A stretch of 64,000 nt of DNA from positions 1 to 64,000 of the forward strand of contig JAKLGA010000017.1 in NCBI GenBank assembly GCA_022710975.1. Reading direction: 5' to 3'. Within the stretch, counting starts at the first letter, position 1; each line of letters opens with the position of its first letter. The translations under genes and the position numbers were made by a program. The notes beneath the pieces were generated by a model. It had not been told where the DNA came from and searched no databases. It saw only the letters and a list, made by a program, of their open reading frames with translations. The stretch is from Myxococcota bacterium (GTDB lineage: Bacteria; Myxococcota; B64-G9). Below, piece after piece: positions 1 through 7,609 of the stretch.

Positions 1-117
1 CACATCAAAAACAACGGACCACCCGGATGGCTCACCCTGGGGCGCGGATTCGACAAGCTTCTCTTGCTCGAGCTCGGCTGGCTCGCCGCTCAGCCAAAGG
101 AAAAGAGATCCGATCAA

Positions 118-729
118 TCATGAGCCGTGCAGGACGCTCTGGATCGCCTCGTTGGCGACGCCATCAGCACCCGAGGCGGGCACGAAGGTGCCTGTCAGGC
201 GAGCCCCGTTCCGGTCAGACGCGGTGGTGGCCACGCGCAGCATGTCCCCGCGTTCGTTCATGCGCTGGAACACCGTGACATCACCGCCGGCCAGCGTGTG
301 GAGCCTGTCCACCAGGGGTACCTCCGCGCTCCTCTCCCGCGTCTGGCCGAGCCATTGGCTGCCGACGAGCATCCTGGGCAGGCTGAGCTCGGCGCCCTGG
401 CCGCTGACCTCGCTGGCGGCGGACCAGGTGACGCGTTCCGGCGACAGGCTGAGACCTCCGGCCTGACGGACGGCCTCGTTCGCCACCTCCATCCCGCTCT
501 TGAGCCTCGAGAGCAGGGACTCGTGCACGGACCGGCACATCAGGAACACGTCCTGGGCGATCCGCCCGGTCTCCTTGCGGACCAGTTCGTCGATCTGCGC
601 GCTGCTCGTCTCGCTGATGGCCTGTTTCTCGAAGAACACCACGAGCAGCAGGGTGAGCGAGAACAGGCACATGATCGAAATCAGGGCCAGCATGATCCGG
701 GCTCGAATCGTCGTGAACCAGCGCAACAT
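118..729 (-). CDS. Truncated chemoreceptor: membrane anchor plus Cache sensor only
   Basis: 203 residues from an ATG preceded by AAGGAGTG; an in-frame GTG three codons earlier is less well placed. Residues about 10-32 form one membrane helix. The rest resembles the Cache_3-Cache_2 fusion sensor of methyl-accepting chemotaxis proteins, with the characteristic stretch GGDVTVFQRMNERGDMLRVA and then GTFVPASGADG. Family members continue for several hundred residues through a second membrane helix, HAMP and the MCP hairpin. This one stops at a TGA right after the sensor, and none of the three frames in the remaining 117 bp resembles MCP sequence. It is the last gene of the chemosensory operon in the window. 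It may be a broken receptor, a stand-alone sensor module, or a rearranged end. Confidence 0.65.
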   Translation of the reverse strand: MLRWFTTIRARIMLALISIMCLFSLTLLLVVFFEKQAISETSSAQIDELVRKETGRIAQDVFLMCRSVHESLLSRLKSGMEVANEAVRQAGGLSLSPERVTWSAASEVSGQGAELSLPRMLVGSQWLGQTRERSAEVPLVDRLHTLAGGDVTVFQRMNERGDMLRVATTASDRNGARLTGTFVPASGADGVANEAIQSVLHGS

Positions 730-765
730 GGCCGTCACTCCTTTCTCGCCAGCCTCAAGGCCGAG

Positions 766-1485
766 TCACGAGGCCGCTGTCTGGCCGAGCCGTCGGGTCT
801 CCTCGGCCGTGAGGACCTTGCCGATGTCGAGCATCAGGATCACCCGCCGGTCGGCCTTGCCGACCCCCAGGATGAACTCGACGTCGACGCAGCCCACCCC
901 GAAGTCCGGCGGCGGCTCGATCTGATCGGCCGCGATGGAGACCACCTCGAGCACCTCGTCCACCAGGATGCCCATGGTCGTCAGCCGATCCTGGGACACG
1001 TACTGCACCACGATGACCACGGTCTGGTCGGTCTCCTCGAGCGAGCCCATGCCGAACTTCCGCTTGAGGTCGATGACCGGGATGATCTTGCCGCGCAGGT
1101 TGATCACCCCCCTGACGAACTCGCTCGTCCCTGGGACCTGGGTGATGTGCATGAGCCGGATGAGCTCGCGCACCTTGAGGATCTCGATGCCGTACTCTTC
1201 CAGCGAGAGCTTGAAGGTCATGTACTTTCCGGCCAGGGCGCGCCCGACCGAGGCCTGCAGCGTCCGCCGCGCCTGGGCTTCATCGTCGTCGGCCAGCTTG
1301 CCCGGGTCCAGCTGGGGGTCCGCTCCCTGCTGGCCTGCGGTCGGGGCAGGCGGAGGCGCCGAGCTGGTCTCTGTCTCCGGTCCGGCCGTCGGCGCGCCGG
1401 TGGCGGCGATCGCCGAAGCGCTGGCCGGCCCGGCGCCGTCGAGACCGGCCAGTGGGTTGTCTTGGATTCGGCTGCGTCGCGCCAT
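766..1485 (-). CDS. cheW: CheW-type coupling protein with long N-terminal extension
   Basis: 239 residues; ATG preceded by AGGAGGAC. Residues about 88-230 are a CheW domain: YMTFKLSLEEYGIEILKVRE, the conserved VRGVINLRGKIIPVIDL, and MGILVDEVLEV. CheW links receptors to the CheA kinase at the membrane array. The first ~85 residues are a proline/alanine-rich, probably disordered extension that ordinary 150-160 residue CheW proteins lack. The gene lies between the ParA-like gene and the chemoreceptor on the same strand, consistent with one chemosensory operon. The end ILMLDIGKVLTAEE is typical of CheW. Confidence 0.9.
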   Translation of the reverse strand: MARRSRIQDNPLAGLDGAGPASASAIAATGAPTAGPETETSSAPPPAPTAGQQGADPQLDPGKLADDDEAQARRTLQASVGRALAGKYMTFKLSLEEYGIEILKVRELIRLMHITQVPGTSEFVRGVINLRGKIIPVIDLKRKFGMGSLEETDQTVVIVVQYVSQDRLTTMGILVDEVLEVVSIAADQIEPPPDFGVGCVDVEFILGVGKADRRVILMLDIGKVLTAEETRRLGQTAAS

Positions 1486-1506: not shown

Positions 1507-2283
1507 TCACTCGGGAGCCCCTCGGCCGTGGGCGGCCAGGAGCTCCTCGGCCAGCTTCCGGTAGTCGCTCGCGCCAGGACTGCCCGGCGCGTACCGGGTG
1601 ATCGGCGCGTGGAAGGATGGCGCCTCGGCGAGCTGGACGTTCTCCCGGATGACGGTCTGCAGCAGCTGCGGCCCGAGTCTCGCCCGCAGGATCTCAAGGA
1701 CCTCGCCGCTCAGCCGCTTGCGCCGATCCACGCGGCACGCCACCACCCGGACGGTGTGGCCTCCGGCGCGCGGACCGCAGTCGAGCCGGACCATGGCCGT
1801 GAAGAGTTGCGCCAGGCCGCGGACCGCGAGCACGTGCGCCTCGACCGGGACCAAGAGCTCCCTGGTCACGGCGAGCGCCAGCCGGGTACGCGCCCCCAGG
1901 GTGGGCGGACAGTCGGCGATGGCCACATCCCAGGGGCCCTGCTCGAGCAGGCTCGAGAGGTCGCCGGCCGAGAACGCCCAGCCGTCCTCCTCGAGGCCCG
2001 CGCCGGAATCTGCACGCGCCTCATCGGCCGGGCTCGCGGGCAGGAGGTCCACGCCCGGCGCGGCGGTCGCGATCACGCGCGCGCTGACGCCGGTGCCAGG
2101 TGTCGTCCGGTGGGGCCCCTCGCCGCAGAGCCAGTAGCTGGCCGCACCCTGGGGATCGAGATCGATCACCAGCGCGCGTAAGCCGCGCTCGGCCATGGCG
2201 CCGGCCAGGTTGACGGCCGTCGTGCTCTTGCAGCTCCCGCCCTTGTGGTTGAGGACGGCGAAGCTCAGGGCGCGTGGCTGCAT
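1507..2283 (-). CDS. ParA/MinD-type ATPase in the chemosensory operon
   Basis: 258 residues with a ParA fold: FAVLNHKGGSCKSTTAVNLA (Walker A), ALVIDLDPQGAASYW (switch I), VAIADCPPTLG (Walker B region) and a C-terminal EAPSFHAPITRYAPGSPGASDY as in Soj-like proteins. The signature KGGxGK(T/S)T reads KGGSCKST here: the glycine before the catalytic lysine is cysteine (codon TGC where GGC is expected). ParA relatives inside chemotaxis operons (ParC of Vibrio, PpfA of Rhodobacter) position receptor arrays at poles or segregate them at division; that role is inferred here from context. Its start overlaps the end of cheA by 19 bp, implying translational coupling. No ParB partner is visible. Confidence 0.85.
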   Translation of the reverse strand: MQPRALSFAVLNHKGGSCKSTTAVNLAGAMAERGLRALVIDLDPQGAASYWLCGEGPHRTTPGTGVSARVIATAAPGVDLLPASPADEARADSGAGLEEDGWAFSAGDLSSLLEQGPWDVAIADCPPTLGARTRLALAVTRELLVPVEAHVLAVRGLAQLFTAMVRLDCGPRAGGHTVRVVACRVDRRKRLSGEVLEILRARLGPQLLQTVIRENVQLAEAPSFHAPITRYAPGSPGASDYRKLAEELLAAHGRGAPE

Positions 2284-4301
2284 CCGCCCACCTCCTCGCC
2301 ATGGGCGGGCGCCCCCTGGTCTGGCCCAGTGGCGTCCGCGGTCCGGTCCTCGGCGTGCGAACGTCCGCGGCGGATCATGGCTCCGATCTCGTCCACGCTC
2401 AGGATCAGGCCCACGTGCCCGTCCGAGAGGATGGCCGCCCCGCTGAAGAAACGCGCCTGCTGGACTCCCGCGCTCAGGCTCTTGATCACCACCTGCTGCT
2501 GCGCCAGGACGTCGTCGACCAGCAACCCGAACTTGCAGCCCATGCCCTCCACCATCACCACCAGCGACTGGCAGGGATCTCTCGGGGCGAGTGCGAGGTC
2601 GAAGAGGGCGGCCAGTCTGACCAGGGGGAGGGTCTCTCCGCGGATGTGGATCAGCTCGTAACGCGCGGCGTGGGAGAAGAGCATGTCGCGCGTGGGCCGC
2701 AGCGACTCGAGCACCGAGAGGGTGGGGATGATGTAGCGCTCCGTCCCGCAGGCCACCAGCATCCCGTCGATGATCGACATGGTGGTGGGCAACAGCAGCT
2801 TGAAACAGGTCCCCTCACCAGCTCTGGAGCTGAGCTTGATCCGCCCGCTCATGGACTCTACGCCCCGGCGAACGACGTCGAGCCCGACGCCGCGGCCGGA
2901 GACCTCGGTGACGCGCGGCGCGGTGCTCAGGCCGGGCTGGAAGATGAGCGCGTCCGTCTCCTCCGCGGAGAGGCTCTGGCCCTCGCGGACGAACCCCAGC
3001 TCGGCGCCCTTCTCCAGGATGCGGCCGCGATCCAGGCCGCGGCCGTCGTCCCGCAGCTCGAGCACGACGCCGCCGCTTTGGCGGTAGGCGGACAGGTGGA
3101 TGGTCCCCATCCGCGGCTTGCCCGTCCGGATGCGCTCGCCCTCGGGCTCGATGCCGTGATCCACCGCGTTGCGGATGAGGTGCACCATGGCCTCGACGAT
3201 GGGCTCCAGCATGCCGCGATCCATTTCGGTGTCCTCGCCGGCCAGGATGAGCTGGATCTGCTTGCCGTGCTGACGTGCGAGGTCGCGGACCATGCGCTTC
3301 ATGCGCAGGAACGTGCCGCGTAGAGCGACCATCCGCATGCGCAGGCCGGCGTCCTGCAGATCCCGGGTGATCTTGCCGAGCTGGCCGAGGTGGGCGCGCA
3401 GCTGCTCCGACCGCAGGGCGCGCAGCTCGGCCGCGCTCGAGACCATCGACTCGACGATGACCAGCTCGCCGATGAGATCGACCAGGCCATCGATGCGCTC
3501 CATGTCGACCTTGATCGTGCTGCGGGCGGAGGGCGCCGCCCGGCGATCCGGGGCGGGCGGCTCCGCACTGAGCTGCTGACACGCGCAGCGCGAGACGCCG
3601 AGATCCTGCAGCTCCCGCCGCAGGTCGTCGGGTGTGCCCGTCCCACCGACGAGGACCCGGAGAGGCCCGCGCCCGTCCAGCCTCCCCAGATCGCCCTCGG
3701 GGGGATCCGTGGCGACGACGCTCCAGGCCTTGCGTAGGCCGCGCAGCAGCTCGAACGCCGCCTCCGGCGCATCGGGAGTGTCGACCGGAAGCCAGAGGTC
3801 GGCCTGCAGGACCTGCAGGCCCTGCTTGCGGAGCGCCTGGATGCGGATCTTGTCGTACTCGCCCTGGGCGAACTCAGCCGCGCCGCCGGGCTGCCCGAGG
3901 GCTTGCTCTGGCCTCGCGGCGTTGCCCAGCAGGGCGGCTAGCCTGGCGGCCATCCCCGCGATCTCCGGTGCGCCTGCGCCCGTCGCCAGCGCGGGCAGAT
4001 CGGCGCGGATCGCGTCCACGGACTGGAAGAGCAGCTCGATGCCGGCCCCGGCGTTCGGGATTTGGCCGCGGTGCAGTCGATCGATCAGCTCCTCGAGGGC
4101 ATGGGCGAACTCCGCGAGCTGGTCGAGCTCGACCGTGGCGGCGGCGCCCTTGAGCGAGTGCGCGCTCCTCAGCAGCTGCAGGTGATGCTCCTGCGAGTCC
4201 GGCTGTTTCTCCAGCTCGAGCAGCGTGCGGTCGAGGAGATCGAGGTGGTCGTGGGCCTCCTCGACGAACACCGGCAGGATGGCTTCGAGCTCCTTGTTCA
4301 C
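2265..4301 (-). CDS. cheA: CheA-type chemosensory histidine kinase
   Basis: 678 residues from a GTG preceded by AGAAGGA. Order of parts: an N-terminal Hpt domain with the phosphorylated histidine at about H48 (RSAHSLKGAAATVEL); a linker/P2-like region to about 265; the dimerisation domain (IDGLVDLIGELVIVESM); the ATPase domain with N box HLIRNAVDHGIE, G1 DDGRGLD and G2 GRGVGLDVV; and a C-terminal CheW-like regulatory domain. It passes phosphate to a response regulator, most obviously the CheY-like protein encoded just upstream. No receiver is fused to its C-terminus, unlike FrzE of Myxococcus. No cheB or cheR is visible, but the operon may continue past the left edge. Confidence 0.95.
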   Translation of the reverse strand: MNKELEAILPVFVEEAHDHLDLLDRTLLELEKQPDSQEHHLQLLRSAHSLKGAAATVELDQLAEFAHALEELIDRLHRGQIPNAGAGIELLFQSVDAIRADLPALATGAGAPEIAGMAARLAALLGNAARPEQALGQPGGAAEFAQGEYDKIRIQALRKQGLQVLQADLWLPVDTPDAPEAAFELLRGLRKAWSVVATDPPEGDLGRLDGRGPLRVLVGGTGTPDDLRRELQDLGVSRCACQQLSAEPPAPDRRAAPSARSTIKVDMERIDGLVDLIGELVIVESMVSSAAELRALRSEQLRAHLGQLGKITRDLQDAGLRMRMVALRGTFLRMKRMVRDLARQHGKQIQLILAGEDTEMDRGMLEPIVEAMVHLIRNAVDHGIEPEGERIRTGKPRMGTIHLSAYRQSGGVVLELRDDGRGLDRGRILEKGAELGFVREGQSLSAEETDALIFQPGLSTAPRVTEVSGRGVGLDVVRRGVESMSGRIKLSSRAGEGTCFKLLLPTTMSIIDGMLVACGTERYIIPTLSVLESLRPTRDMLFSHAARYELIHIRGETLPLVRLAALFDLALAPRDPCQSLVVMVEGMGCKFGLLVDDVLAQQQVVIKSLSAGVQQARFFSGAAILSDGHVGLILSVDEIGAMIRRGRSHAEDRTADATGPDQGAPAHGEEVGGCSHAP

Positions 4302-4319: not shown

Positions 4320-4685
4320 TCAGTCGATGAAGCCGCGCACCTTCGCCAGGAGCTCGAGCTTGCTCACTGGCTTGGTGAGGTAGTCGTTGCAGCCCGCCAG
4401 GAACGCCCTCTCGACCAGGGCGGGCTCGCCCTTGGTGGTCACCATGACGATCGGGATCCGGTTGGTCTTCGGGTCGGCCTTCACCCGGCGGCAGCACTCG
4501 ATCCCGTCCATCACCGGCATCATGATGTCGAGCAGGATCAGGTCCGGCGGATCCGCCTGGACCGCGGCCAGGGCCTCGCGCCCGTCGTGGGCGGTCGTCA
4601 TGTCGTAGCCGTAGGTGCTGAGCATCATCCGCATGAAGAGGAGTACGGTCTCGGTGTCGTCGACGAGCAGGATCTTGCGCCCCAT
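4320..4685 (-). CDS. CheY-like single-domain response regulator
   Basis: 121 residues. The ATG giving MGRKILLVDD is preferred; a longer reading adds 11 unlikely residues. The acidic pair is D9/D10, the phosphoacceptor is D53 (LILLDIMMPVMDG), then MVTTKGE and the lysine in DYLTKPV, so all receiver residues are intact. There is no output domain, so it signals by protein contact. It is the first gene of the chemosensory operon, 18 bp ahead of cheA, and about 40 bp downstream of the predicted start of a sigma54 promoter. Likely substrate of the adjacent CheA; the target (motor, Glt complex or other) cannot be told. Confidence 0.92.
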   Translation of the reverse strand: MGRKILLVDDTETVLLFMRMMLSTYGYDMTTAHDGREALAAVQADPPDLILLDIMMPVMDGIECCRRVKADPKTNRIPIVMVTTKGEPALVERAFLAGCNDYLTKPVSKLELLAKVRGFID

Positions 4686-4735
4686 CTCAGGCCTCCTCGG
4701 GCAGCGCGCACCATGCATGAGTCGGCCTGCTGCGT

Positions 4736-4751
4736 TGCACGGGGTGTGCCA
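4736..4751 (-). promoter_or_regulatory. Sigma54 (-24/-12) promoter of the chemosensory operon
   Basis: Read on the minus strand the sequence is TGGCAC-A-CCCC-GTGCA. It matches the sigma54 consensus TGGCACG-N4-TTGCA at all but two positions and has exactly the required GG-to-GC spacing of 12. The predicted start is near 4726, about 40 bp before the CheY-like start codon. The gene upstream encodes a GAFTGA-containing sigma54 activator, which fits. Confidence 0.85.
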
Positions 4752-4826
4752 GGGCGGCTGGGGCCTCCGAACGCACGGAATCGCATGCGCACTGCGCAGG
4801 GGCGCCGCGCCGCGCCCGGTTCGTTT

Positions 4827-4863
4827 GTTGCCAGCCCGGCAACTGTTGACATCAACAGTTGCC
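4827..4863. promoter_or_regulatory. Palindromic upstream activating site (probable enhancer)
   Basis: A perfect inverted repeat with 12-bp arms (GGCAACTGTTGA / TCAACAGTTGCC) and a 2-bp centre occupies 4838-4863. A third, inverted half-site GTTGCC lies at 4827-4832. Its centre is about 125 bp upstream of the predicted sigma54 start, within the usual range for enhancers bound by dimers of NtrC-type activators. It begins 15 bp after the activator gene ends. No T-run follows on the minus strand, so it does not look like a terminator. Confidence 0.7.
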
Positions 4864-4877
4864 AGCCTGGGGGCGCA

Positions 4878-6260
4878 TCATTCGAGGCGATATTTGGCGA
4901 TCTTGCTGCGCAGGGTGGAGTAGGCCATGCCGAGGGTCTTGGCCGCCTGGCGGCGGTTCCACCGGGCCGCCTGGAGGGAGGCCAGGATGCGCTCGCGTTC
5001 CCCGGCCGCGGCGGCGGGGGTCGTCCGCCTGGGTGAGCGCGGAGGTGCCGGTGTGCCGGCGAACGGGGGCAGGAAGTGCTCGGGCAGCAACCACCCGCCT
5101 CCGCTCAGGATGGACGCGCGCTCGACCATGTTGCGCAGCTCGCGGGCGTTCCCCGGCAGCTCCAACGACGTGAGGTGCTCCTCGGCCTGGGGGGAGATGC
5201 CCTCGAAATGCATCCCCCTGGCGCCAGCGAAGTCGGCCAGGAATTGCCGTGCCAGGGGCAGGATGTCCTCGCGGCGGTCCCTGAGCGGGGCGAGGTAGAT
5301 GGCGAAGGCATTCATGCGATAGAGCAGATCCTGGCGGAACCTCCCGCGCTCGACCAGGGTCTCGAGCTGCGTGTTGGTCGCGGCGACCACCCGGACGTCC
5401 ACGGCGATCTCCCGGTTGCCGCCGATGCGTCTCACCATCCGCGTCTCCAGCACCCGCAGCAGCTTGGCCTGCGCCCCGGCGGAGAGATCCGCGACCTCAT
5501 CCAGGAACAGGGTGCCTCCGTTGGCGAGCTCGAAGCAGCCGATCCGGTCGCCCGCGGCGCCGGTGAAGGCGCCCCGGACATGGCCGAAGAGCTCGCTCTC
5601 CACGAGGGTGTCGGGGAGCGCCGGGCAGCTCACGGCGATGAACGGTTGCTCCCGGACGTCCGACTGGAAGTGGATCTGCCGCGCGACCACCTCCTTGCCG
5701 GTTCCGGTCTCTCCGCACACCAGCACGGTGTCGCACCCGGCCCGCGCGCTCAGCAGGATCTGCTCGCGCACCACCTCGGTCTGTCGGCTGGTCCCCAGGA
5801 CCTGCGGCGCAGATCGGGTCGAAGGGTGATTGCCCTGGAGGTGGCAGATGGTTTCCTTCAACCGGTTGCGCTCCATGCTCAGCCGGCGGACCCGCGTGGA
5901 TTTCTCCAGGACCGCGTCGAGCTCGAGCAGGCGGATGGGTTTGGTGAGGAAGTCCACCGCGCCGAGCCGCAACGCCTGGATGGCCGTCTCCATGGTGCCG
6001 TGGCCCGAGATCATCACCACCGAGATCTCCGGATAGAGTCTCTGGATCCGGGAGAGCAGCTCCAGCCCGCTCATGCGCGGCATGAGGATGTCCAGGAGCA
6101 CGAGGTCGAAGTACTCGCGCTCCAGGCAGGCGAGCGCCTCCTGGCCCTCCCGCGCGCAGCGCACGGCGTGGCCGCATTGGACCAGGTAGTCCCCGAGCGT
6201 CTCGTGCACGATGGCCTCGTCGTCCACCACCAGGATGTGTAGCTCTTTCTCCATGACCAT
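4878..6260 (-). CDS. NtrC-family sigma54 response regulator (enhancer-binding protein)
   Basis: 460 residues. Residues 7-120 are a receiver with phosphoacceptor D57 (LVLLDILMPRMSG) and lysine in DFLTKPI. Residues about 155-390 are the AAA+ activator domain: Walker A GETGTGKE (183-190), the sigma54 contact loop GAFTGA (230-235) and Walker B TLFLDE. The last ~40 residues are a Fis-type helix-turn-helix (WNRRQAAKTLGMAYSTLRSKI). Phosphorylation by the kinase encoded just upstream (5-bp gap) should trigger oligomerisation and open-complex formation. The obvious target is the sigma54 promoter and palindrome immediately downstream. An in-frame ATG two codons later is an alternative start. Confidence 0.95.
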   Translation of the reverse strand: MVMEKELHILVVDDEAIVHETLGDYLVQCGHAVRCAREGQEALACLEREYFDLVLLDILMPRMSGLELLSRIQRLYPEISVVMISGHGTMETAIQALRLGAVDFLTKPIRLLELDAVLEKSTRVRRLSMERNRLKETICHLQGNHPSTRSAPQVLGTSRQTEVVREQILLSARAGCDTVLVCGETGTGKEVVARQIHFQSDVREQPFIAVSCPALPDTLVESELFGHVRGAFTGAAGDRIGCFELANGGTLFLDEVADLSAGAQAKLLRVLETRMVRRIGGNREIAVDVRVVAATNTQLETLVERGRFRQDLLYRMNAFAIYLAPLRDRREDILPLARQFLADFAGARGMHFEGISPQAEEHLTSLELPGNARELRNMVERASILSGGGWLLPEHFLPPFAGTPAPPRSPRRTTPAAAAGERERILASLQAARWNRRQAAKTLGMAYSTLRSKIAKYRLE

Positions 6261-6265
6261 CCCCG

Positions 6266-7558
6266 TCAGCCGTTCTGTCCGTCCGGGCTGGCCACGGCCA
6301 GGCGGACTGTCGCAACGGTCCCCGAACCCTGCGCGGTGTGGAGCGCGAGCTGGCCCCCCATGCGCTCCACCAGGAGCCGCGAGACGGGTAAGCCCAGGCC
6401 GGTGTTCCCGGCCTCGAGCCGGCTGGTGAAGAACGGCTCGAACACGCGCGGCAGGATCTCCGCGGGGATGCCGCCAGCCGAGTCCTCCACCTCCACGAGG
6501 ATCCAGCCGCCCTGCGCCCCTTCGCGCGAGGTCCGCACGTGCACGGTGCTGGCCGGATCGATGCTGCCTCCCTCGGGCACGCGGTGGTGGTCCAGCAGCG
6601 CATCGCGAGCGTTGGCCAGGAGGTGGAACAGCACCTCCTCCAGGGCGGCCGGGTTGATGCGGATCGGAGGGAGGTCCGAGGCCAGCTCGAGCGCGAGGGA
6701 GATCCCCCGGCTGTGGAGGCGGGGAGAGACGAAGTCCGCGCCGCGGCGCACCACGGCGTTGAGATCCGCCAGCTGTCGTTCGGTGCGAAACGCCCCGCGA
6801 GCGTGCTGGCGCAGGTGGTTCACGATCTCAGTGATGCGATCGGTCTGCTCGATGATCCGGGTGACCTTCTCGCGCAGGCGCTGCTCGCTCCACTCCCATC
6901 TTCGATCGAGCCCCAGCAGGATGTGCTCGGCGATGCCCCGAACCCCGACCAGCGGCTGGTTCAGCTCGTGGGCCAGGTTGGACGCCATCTCCCCGAAGAT
7001 TCGCAGGCGGTCGGCGGCGATGGTCTCTGCGTACTGCTCCGGCGATGGGCCCGGCGCGTCGCCACTCCAGCCGTGGGCCGCCCGTGGGCGCTGCAGCCAG
7101 GTGCAGTCGGCCAGCAGACCCGCGAGGCCCTTCGCCGTCACCAGGTCGCCTGCCCTGAACCCGTCCGCCCGGTCGGCCGCGAACAGCGTCCCCAGGAGCT
7201 CGCCCTCCCTGCGGAGCGGGGCGACGAGGGCATTCGCGAAACACCCCGAGGCGCCCGGCAGGGCGGTGGACCACTGCCATTCGTCGGGTCGGCCCGAGAG
7301 AAGGGCGGCCCCCAGGATCCCGGACTTCTGCACCAGCTGCTCGAGGTAACCGAGCCGCTCGGCGCGCTCGACCGTGGACCAGGTCGGCCCGTCCAGCGCG
7401 GGGCTCCTGACGAGTTGGCCTCCTCCGGTAAAGACGGCCAGCCACGCCACGCGGACTTGGAGGAGATCCCTGGCGCAGGCACACGCCGACTGCAATCCGG
7501 CCGGGGGGTCGCGGAACTTTCCGGTCGCCTCCTCGCTGCCAGCATGAGCTCGCGGCAC
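6266..7558 (-). CDS. Soluble sensor histidine kinase (GAF-HisKA-HATPase)
   Basis: 430 residues from a GTG with GGAGG seven bases upstream. A longer reading from a TTG at 7609 is rejected because that TTG is part of the -35 element. Residues about 20-155 look like a GAF-type sensor with no membrane segment. The dimerisation domain carries H197 in NLAHELNQPLVGVRG. The ATPase has an N box around N316 (LLANARDAL), DSAGG at 359 and GNTGLGL at 384. This NtrB/ZraS-like arrangement pairs with the downstream sigma54 regulator, 5 bp away. A cytoplasmic signal is likely; ligand unknown. Confidence 0.9.
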   Translation of the reverse strand: MPRAHAGSEEATGKFRDPPAGLQSACACARDLLQVRVAWLAVFTGGGQLVRSPALDGPTWSTVERAERLGYLEQLVQKSGILGAALLSGRPDEWQWSTALPGASGCFANALVAPLRREGELLGTLFAADRADGFRAGDLVTAKGLAGLLADCTWLQRPRAAHGWSGDAPGPSPEQYAETIAADRLRIFGEMASNLAHELNQPLVGVRGIAEHILLGLDRRWEWSEQRLREKVTRIIEQTDRITEIVNHLRQHARGAFRTERQLADLNAVVRRGADFVSPRLHSRGISLALELASDLPPIRINPAALEEVLFHLLANARDALLDHHRVPEGGSIDPASTVHVRTSREGAQGGWILVEVEDSAGGIPAEILPRVFEPFFTSRLEAGNTGLGLPVSRLLVERMGGQLALHTAQGSGTVATVRLAVASPDGQNG

Positions 7559-7580
7559 GGCGCTGCCTCCAGGGCGCGGG

Positions 7581-7609
7581 AGGTTAGCATGTCTTCGATC
7601 CGCGACCAA
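7581..7609 (-). promoter_or_regulatory. Sigma70-type promoter of the kinase-regulator operon
   Basis: Minus strand TTGGTC-N17-TAACCT, predicted start near 7574, about 16 bp before the kinase GTG. It stands back to back with the hypE promoter. Confidence 0.6.

Follow-up and report, generated by a model that had tools for sequence, protein, structure and literature searches.

A candidate sigma-54 switch, with its own kinase–activator pair, upstream of a chemosensory operon in a Myxococcota bacterium

Introduction

In linked pairs of a histidine kinase and an NtrC-type activator, such as AtoSC and ZraSR, a sigma-54-dependent target located in cis is the standard layout. A pair of this kind can also be tied to a chemosensory (che) system. 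In Myxococcus xanthus, the NtrC-like activator CrdA is controlled by the kinase CrdS and by the Che3 system (PMC3510030), the CheA3 protein of which has a C-terminal receiver (PMC3945109). Putative sigma-54 promoters, reported as predictions only, precede several che clusters of Geobacter (PMC2577667). Cluster III of Vibrio cholerae is RpoS-controlled, within the context of RpoS and quorum sensing (PMC7534058), Borrelia mcp5 is under the Rrp2-RpoN-RpoS pathway (PMC11723614), and ParC and ParP are array-positioning proteins of Vibrio (PMC5706961). Since che genes with regulated expression or with sigma-54 promoters are already known, the statement of an earlier, sequence-only reading of the locus described here, that a dedicated inducible switch of chemosensory genes is unusual, was too strong, with counter-cases in Geobacter, V. 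cholerae, and Borrelia.

Gene Order and Protein Domains

The window, meaning the whole stretch of 64,000 nucleotides that was analysed, opens contig C9 (199,630 bp), which belongs to a genome of 7.13 Mb. On its minus strand, Pfam domains give the order kinase, activator, palindrome, -24/-12 element, and cheY-cheA-parA-cheW-receptor, as had been read from the sequence, with only the N terminus of the receptor present. The kinase (6266..7609, minus strand, annotated start uncertain) is a soluble histidine kinase with the Pfam domains GAF_2, HisKA, and HATPase_c; its phospho-acceptor lies within NLAHELNQPL, and no transmembrane segment is seen in the translation. The gene that follows (4878..6260, minus strand) encodes an NtrC-type sigma-54 activator, comprising by Pfam a receiver (REC), an AAA+ domain (Sigma54_activat), and a Fis-type helix-turn-helix, HTH (HTH_8), with the sequence WNRRQAAKTLGMAYSTLRSK. 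Both the receiver Asp and the GAFTGA motif are read directly from the translation, and the protein thus combines REC, AAA+ with GAFTGA, and a Fis-type HTH, as expected of the NtrC type. Its top NCBIfam matches are AtoC, NtrC, and ZraR, with scores well short of the equivalog cut-offs. A single Sigma54_DBD match (E 8.7e-62) represents the one sigma-54 (RpoN) of the genome.

The first gene of the operon (4320..4685, minus strand) encodes a CheY-type single receiver domain by Pfam, a longer open reading frame from 4718 being unlikely. CheA (2265..4301, minus strand, Pfam) carries Hpt, dimerisation, HATPase, and CheW-like domains without a C-terminal receiver, and its closest relatives are 46-47% identical over the full length. 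A ParA/MinD-type ATPase (1507..2283, minus strand, Pfam) is encoded between cheA and cheW; its best other match reaches at most 39% identity among 58 relatives. The parA gene overlaps the end of cheA by 19 bp. CheW (766..1485, minus strand), identified by Pfam and from its translation, has an N-terminal extension of ~85 residues rich in Pro and Ala.

The last feature on this strand is the N-terminal part (~200 residues) of a Cache_3-Cache_2 chemoreceptor (about 125..738, minus strand, Pfam), cut by an insertion sequence. The end of that element, with the 3' end of a probable transposase gene, occupies bases 1..124 on the plus strand, and these bases are exactly common to three contig ends (C24:428960-429083, C1:920464-920587, and the end of contig C4, locus L099); a search for the insertion sequence family gave no match. 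The rest of the receptor forms the end of C4. Both receptor flanks carry CCTGCACGG, a 9-bp target duplication, and joining them with one copy restores a continuous 926-aa MCP. As the main receptor gene of the operon is disrupted in the sequenced genome, the array may lack a receptor of its own. On C4, the receptor is followed by cheR, cheD, cheB, a GAF gene, and a second MCP-domain gene, so that the operon is longer than was first read, and the Che set is complete across the two contigs (CheA, CheW, CheY, MCP, CheR, and CheB, plus CheD).

The -24/-12 Element and the Palindrome

The -24/-12 element TGGCACACCCCGTGCA (4736..4751, minus strand), located by pattern and weighted score, has the form GG-N10-GC in a TGGCAC..TGC context, with GG at 4750-4749 and GC at 4738-4737, so that the exact spacing claimed for it is confirmed at 4751-4736. 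It is the top-scoring site of the window by a simple weighted score; shuffled sequences contain 1.7 sites at that score per 64 kb, counting both strands, which corresponds to 0.0025 (about 0.003) in the 193-bp target strand. Scoring on the genome scale comprised pattern searches and ~177 kb of own-genome sequence, the window included. The bare strict pattern occurs 15 times genome-wide and 12 times in the reversed control, that is, without enrichment, so it is position and context, and not the consensus alone, that carry weight. The transcription start predicted from the element, ~12 nt downstream of GC, falls at ~4725 on the minus strand. It would leave a leader of ~40 nt before the cheY ATG at 4685, which is preceded by GAGGAGG. 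A consensus scan of 4600-5000 revealed no sigma-70-type promoter.

The palindrome (4838..4863, minus strand) is 26 bp long and reads GGCAACTGTTGA-TG-TCAACAGTTGCC, with 12-bp perfect arms and a 2-bp spacer, and it starts 14 nt past the activator stop codon. The coordinates bear out what had been said of it, both the perfect arms and a centre at about -125 from the predicted start. Arms of at least 12 bp with a spacer of 0-2 were found in 2 of 30 shuffled 64-kb windows, or ~2e-4 when scaled to the 193 bp between activator and cheY. Another GGCAAC half-site, the third (4827..4832, minus strand), located from its offsets, lies one helical turn from the palindrome; from centre to centre, the half-sites are separated by 20 and 11 bp, close to two turns and one turn. 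We interpret these distances as placing the half-sites on one face of the helix, an arrangement known from activators that bind as several dimers. The palindrome is a candidate upstream activating sequence (UAS) or enhancer; its centre and the third half-site, at ~-105, fall in the range of 80-150 bp upstream of the predicted start where enhancer-type sites are expected.

The absence of enrichment of the bare -24/-12 pattern would fit an explanation by chance, in which both elements are non-functional and the che operon is served by readthrough or by a housekeeping promoter. We find this hardly credible, as the occurrence of both elements within a single 193-bp gap is improbable and two orthologs of the activator, described below, have the same layout.

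A search of the 7.13 Mb genome for further copies of the palindrome, as the sequence-only reading had proposed, returned a single site at up to 3 mismatches. The looser pattern GGCAAC-N8-20-GTTGCC has five genomic sites, the palindrome among them; one of the four others (L108) has a -24/-12-like element scoring 13.0 at ~100 bp, and no coherent regulon was found in this search of the genome with the looser half-site pattern. The palindrome is a probable site of the activator, an assignment that we infer from linkage, position, uniqueness, and one conserved half-site rather than from a demonstrated regulon.

Two other identities of the palindrome were rejected, that of a dispersed repeat, ruled out by the single genomic copy, and that of an intrinsic terminator, there being no T-run and no terminator match on the minus strand at this position. 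The first of its bases being only 14 nt from the activator stop, the palindrome might in a broader sense be an RNA hairpin at the 3' end of the kinase-activator transcript, acting as terminator or stabiliser, and the predicted fold is indeed strong (-55.7 kcal/mol for 101 nt, z -3.8). Besides the missing T-run and terminator, however, the third half-site one helical turn away and an ortholog (L055) that keeps TGGCAAC at the same offset without a hairpin argue against such a role, which we consider quite unlikely.

Activator Orthologs and Their Downstream Gaps

Orthologs of the activator with 52-57% identity are present in two genomes, G003 and G007, and on two Sumerlaeota contigs, L055 and L056. 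Close orthologs were found in only 2 of the 195 genomes of the phylum, at 57% and 54%, while the Sumerlaeota are represented, among the matches listed, by the two contigs (57% and 53%). A search of plasmids gave, among the best matches, only relatives at ~41-43%. All five activators, including that of the window, directly follow a related kinase.

In two of the four ortholog loci, a strong -24/-12 element follows immediately after the activator gene, with different targets. In G003, which belongs to another genus of the same family, itself covered with nine genomes, the element TGGCATGAGACTTGCT is found 201 nt past the activator stop and is followed by genes for a receiver and a GAF coiled-coil protein. 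In the Sumerlaeota contig L055 (ortholog at 994-2530, 57%), CGGCACACCGCTTGCC lies 112 nt past the stop, and the target is a dehydrogenase-like gene and not a che gene. Here TGGCAAC is found 14 nt past the activator stop, at the same offset as in the window, and the alignment of the two gaps was equalled by 9 of 1000 shuffles. The two remaining orthologs have no clear downstream element: G007 has only a weak one, and in L056 no co-directional gene is next to the activator. None of the four retains the palindrome in full. Judged from these predicted elements, the layout of kinase, activator, promoter, and target recurs in two of the four orthologs while the target changes.

A blind search for words shared upstream of four -24/-12 elements gave no 7-9-mers above shuffles (63% of shuffles were as good for k=7 and 47% for k=8), with TGGCAAC and AACTGTTG among the top words; a signal at 10-12-mers was the GCTCCTGGGC-type word seeded in L080. 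This lack of significance would suit a palindrome that serves as operator for some unlinked regulator other than the activator, such as a repressor, the activator itself acting elsewhere. That arrangement seems very unlikely to us, because no other regulator gene adjoins, a repressor would not usually bind near -125, and a genome-unique site is what a dedicated pair is expected to have.

Relatives of the Chemosensory Operon

Genomes G024 and G042 contain the closest orthologous che clusters, in which CheY shares 60-64% identity with that of the window. Neither the activator nor ParA nor a good -24/-12 element is found in these clusters (338 bp upstream were covered for G042), and no ParA was seen in any of the orthologous che clusters examined. 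Because these parts are missing there, the comparison is consistent with recruitment of the che operon by a sigma-54 cassette in the lineage of the window. We can speculate further that the kinase, the activator, the enhancer, and the -24/-12 promoter form a mobile cassette that was re-targeted between lineages and phyla and once captured a whole che operon, with ParA as an addition, array abundance thereby becoming the switched output of the kinase, possibly with feedback of CheA on the activator. We hold this extended scenario to be rather unlikely as a whole.

The G003 activator is followed downstream by a gene for a GAF coiled-coil protein that shares 43% identity, over 160 aa, with the one encoded after cheB on C4. 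Since G003 has further GAF coiled-coil copies that are about as close, what links the loci is the GAF family rather than one particular copy. This family, which has no NCBIfam name, is recurrent in che clusters of Myxococcota, with members at L193 15275-15736, L194 12404-12880, L195 1638-2096, L196 13185-13649, L197 3590-4072, and L200 1637-2110. A strong -24/-12 element, TGGCATGGGTATTGCT, also precedes a second CheY-GAF operon of G003 (L191 2250-3438, G003:C3) at a distance of 55 nt, and CheY of that operon is 62% identical to CheY of the window.

NtrC-type activators are also encoded 1-3 kb upstream of other che clusters, namely L100 (contig C12 of the same genome) and L193 (G007:C95), where the 700 bp leading up to the first che gene contain no good -24/-12 element. 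Such neighborhoods in Myxococcota, together with the control of CrdA by both CrdS and Che3 in M. xanthus (PMC3510030), lend themselves to the chief rival explanation, a mirrored wiring in which CheA would tune the phosphorylation of the activator, the main targets would be elsewhere, and the intergenic sites would serve at most for autoregulation or feedback. Several features of the locus point away from it: CheA of the window lacks the receiver found in CheA3 (PMC3945109), the kinase is a soluble GAF protein and not a membrane HAMP kinase like CrdS, a dedicated CheY is present, and the -24/-12 element faces the che operon. We regard this wiring as unlikely in its own right; it is, nevertheless, compatible with a switch of the operon by the activator.

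Proposed Mechanism

In the mechanism that we propose, the soluble GAF-domain kinase would sense an intracellular or diffusible signal and, judging from the pairing of the two genes and from their intact residues, phosphorylate the neighboring NtrC-type activator. The activator would then oligomerise on the palindrome and the extra half-site (4827-4863). Looping of the intervening ~100 bp would bring it into contact with the sigma-54 polymerase at 4736-4751, and the GAFTGA loop of the activator's AAA+ domain would remodel the polymerase. Looping and remodelling by AAA+ GAFTGA proteins are the established mechanism of this activator family. Transcription from ~4725 would proceed through cheY-cheA-parA-cheW-mcp-cheR-cheD-cheB-GAF, in the order pieced together across two contigs, the genes being presumed to be co-transcribed.

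We favor, as a somewhat better than even proposition, that how much of the chemosensory system is made depends on a dedicated two-component switch. This is supported by the intact domains and motifs, the rare and unique palindrome, a -24/-12 element that outscores all others in the window and has the correct place and orientation, the presence of RpoN, the absence of a sigma-70-type match, and the orthologs. The points that weigh against it are the unenriched -24/-12 pattern, the null outcome of the blind search, the unconserved palindrome, the two orthologs (G007 and L056) with no clear downstream element, the non-che target in L055, and the interrupted receptor. That the amount of the array is switched by a soluble GAF-domain kinase, as the sequence-only reading predicted, is the most economical reading, since the kinase-activator pair is intact, RpoN is encoded, the palindrome and the element stand at canonical distances, and two of the four orthologs have the element as well; the rarity attached to inducible che expression was put too strongly. 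On the evidence of the DNA, the activator most likely binds the palindrome and turns on the che operon, and the bacterium probably makes its chemosensory apparatus only on demand.

If this is true, array abundance would be set by a dedicated two-component switch, and the array would be deployed only under the condition sensed by the kinase. The locus would then offer a small and testable example of che genes gated at the level of transcription, a mirror image of CrdSA/Che3, as well as a case of sigma-54 control cassettes changing their targets in evolution.

Comparison with Known Systems

The locus resembles CrdS-CrdA/Che3 in that a kinase and an NtrC-type sigma-54 activator are tied to a che system, in what is probably the same phylum. 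The direction differs: the che system regulates the activator in Che3, whereas the DNA layout in the window points to control of the che operon by the activator. CheA3 has a receiver and CheA of the window has none, and CrdS is a membrane kinase with HAMP and a periplasmic sensor, whereas the kinase of the window consists only of GAF, HisKA, and HATPase domains. In Geobacter, predicted starts lie 16-50 nt upstream of the che ATG codons, compared to ~40 nt in the window, and a kinase-activator pair next to the operon, dedicated to it and equipped with a palindromic site, is not described in the accessible part of that study (PMC2577667).

V. cholerae cluster III and Borrelia mcp5 are similar in that transcription sets the amount of chemosensory proteins, but they are not controlled by a dedicated neighboring two-component pair. 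The ParC/ParP system combines a ParA-like ATPase with a ParP protein that has an AIF domain and with a LID segment in CheA. It shares a ParA-type ATPase in a che operon beside a CheW-domain protein; the window, however, has only one CheW-domain gene, which is homologous to CheW of clusters without ParA. Compared to AtoSC and ZraSR, it is the target that differs, being a chemosensory operon. In a limited search of the literature, we found no described case of a dedicated cis-linked switch of a whole chemosensory operon. The parts are all of known kinds, and a dedicated cis-linked switch of a whole che operon is a variant of them.
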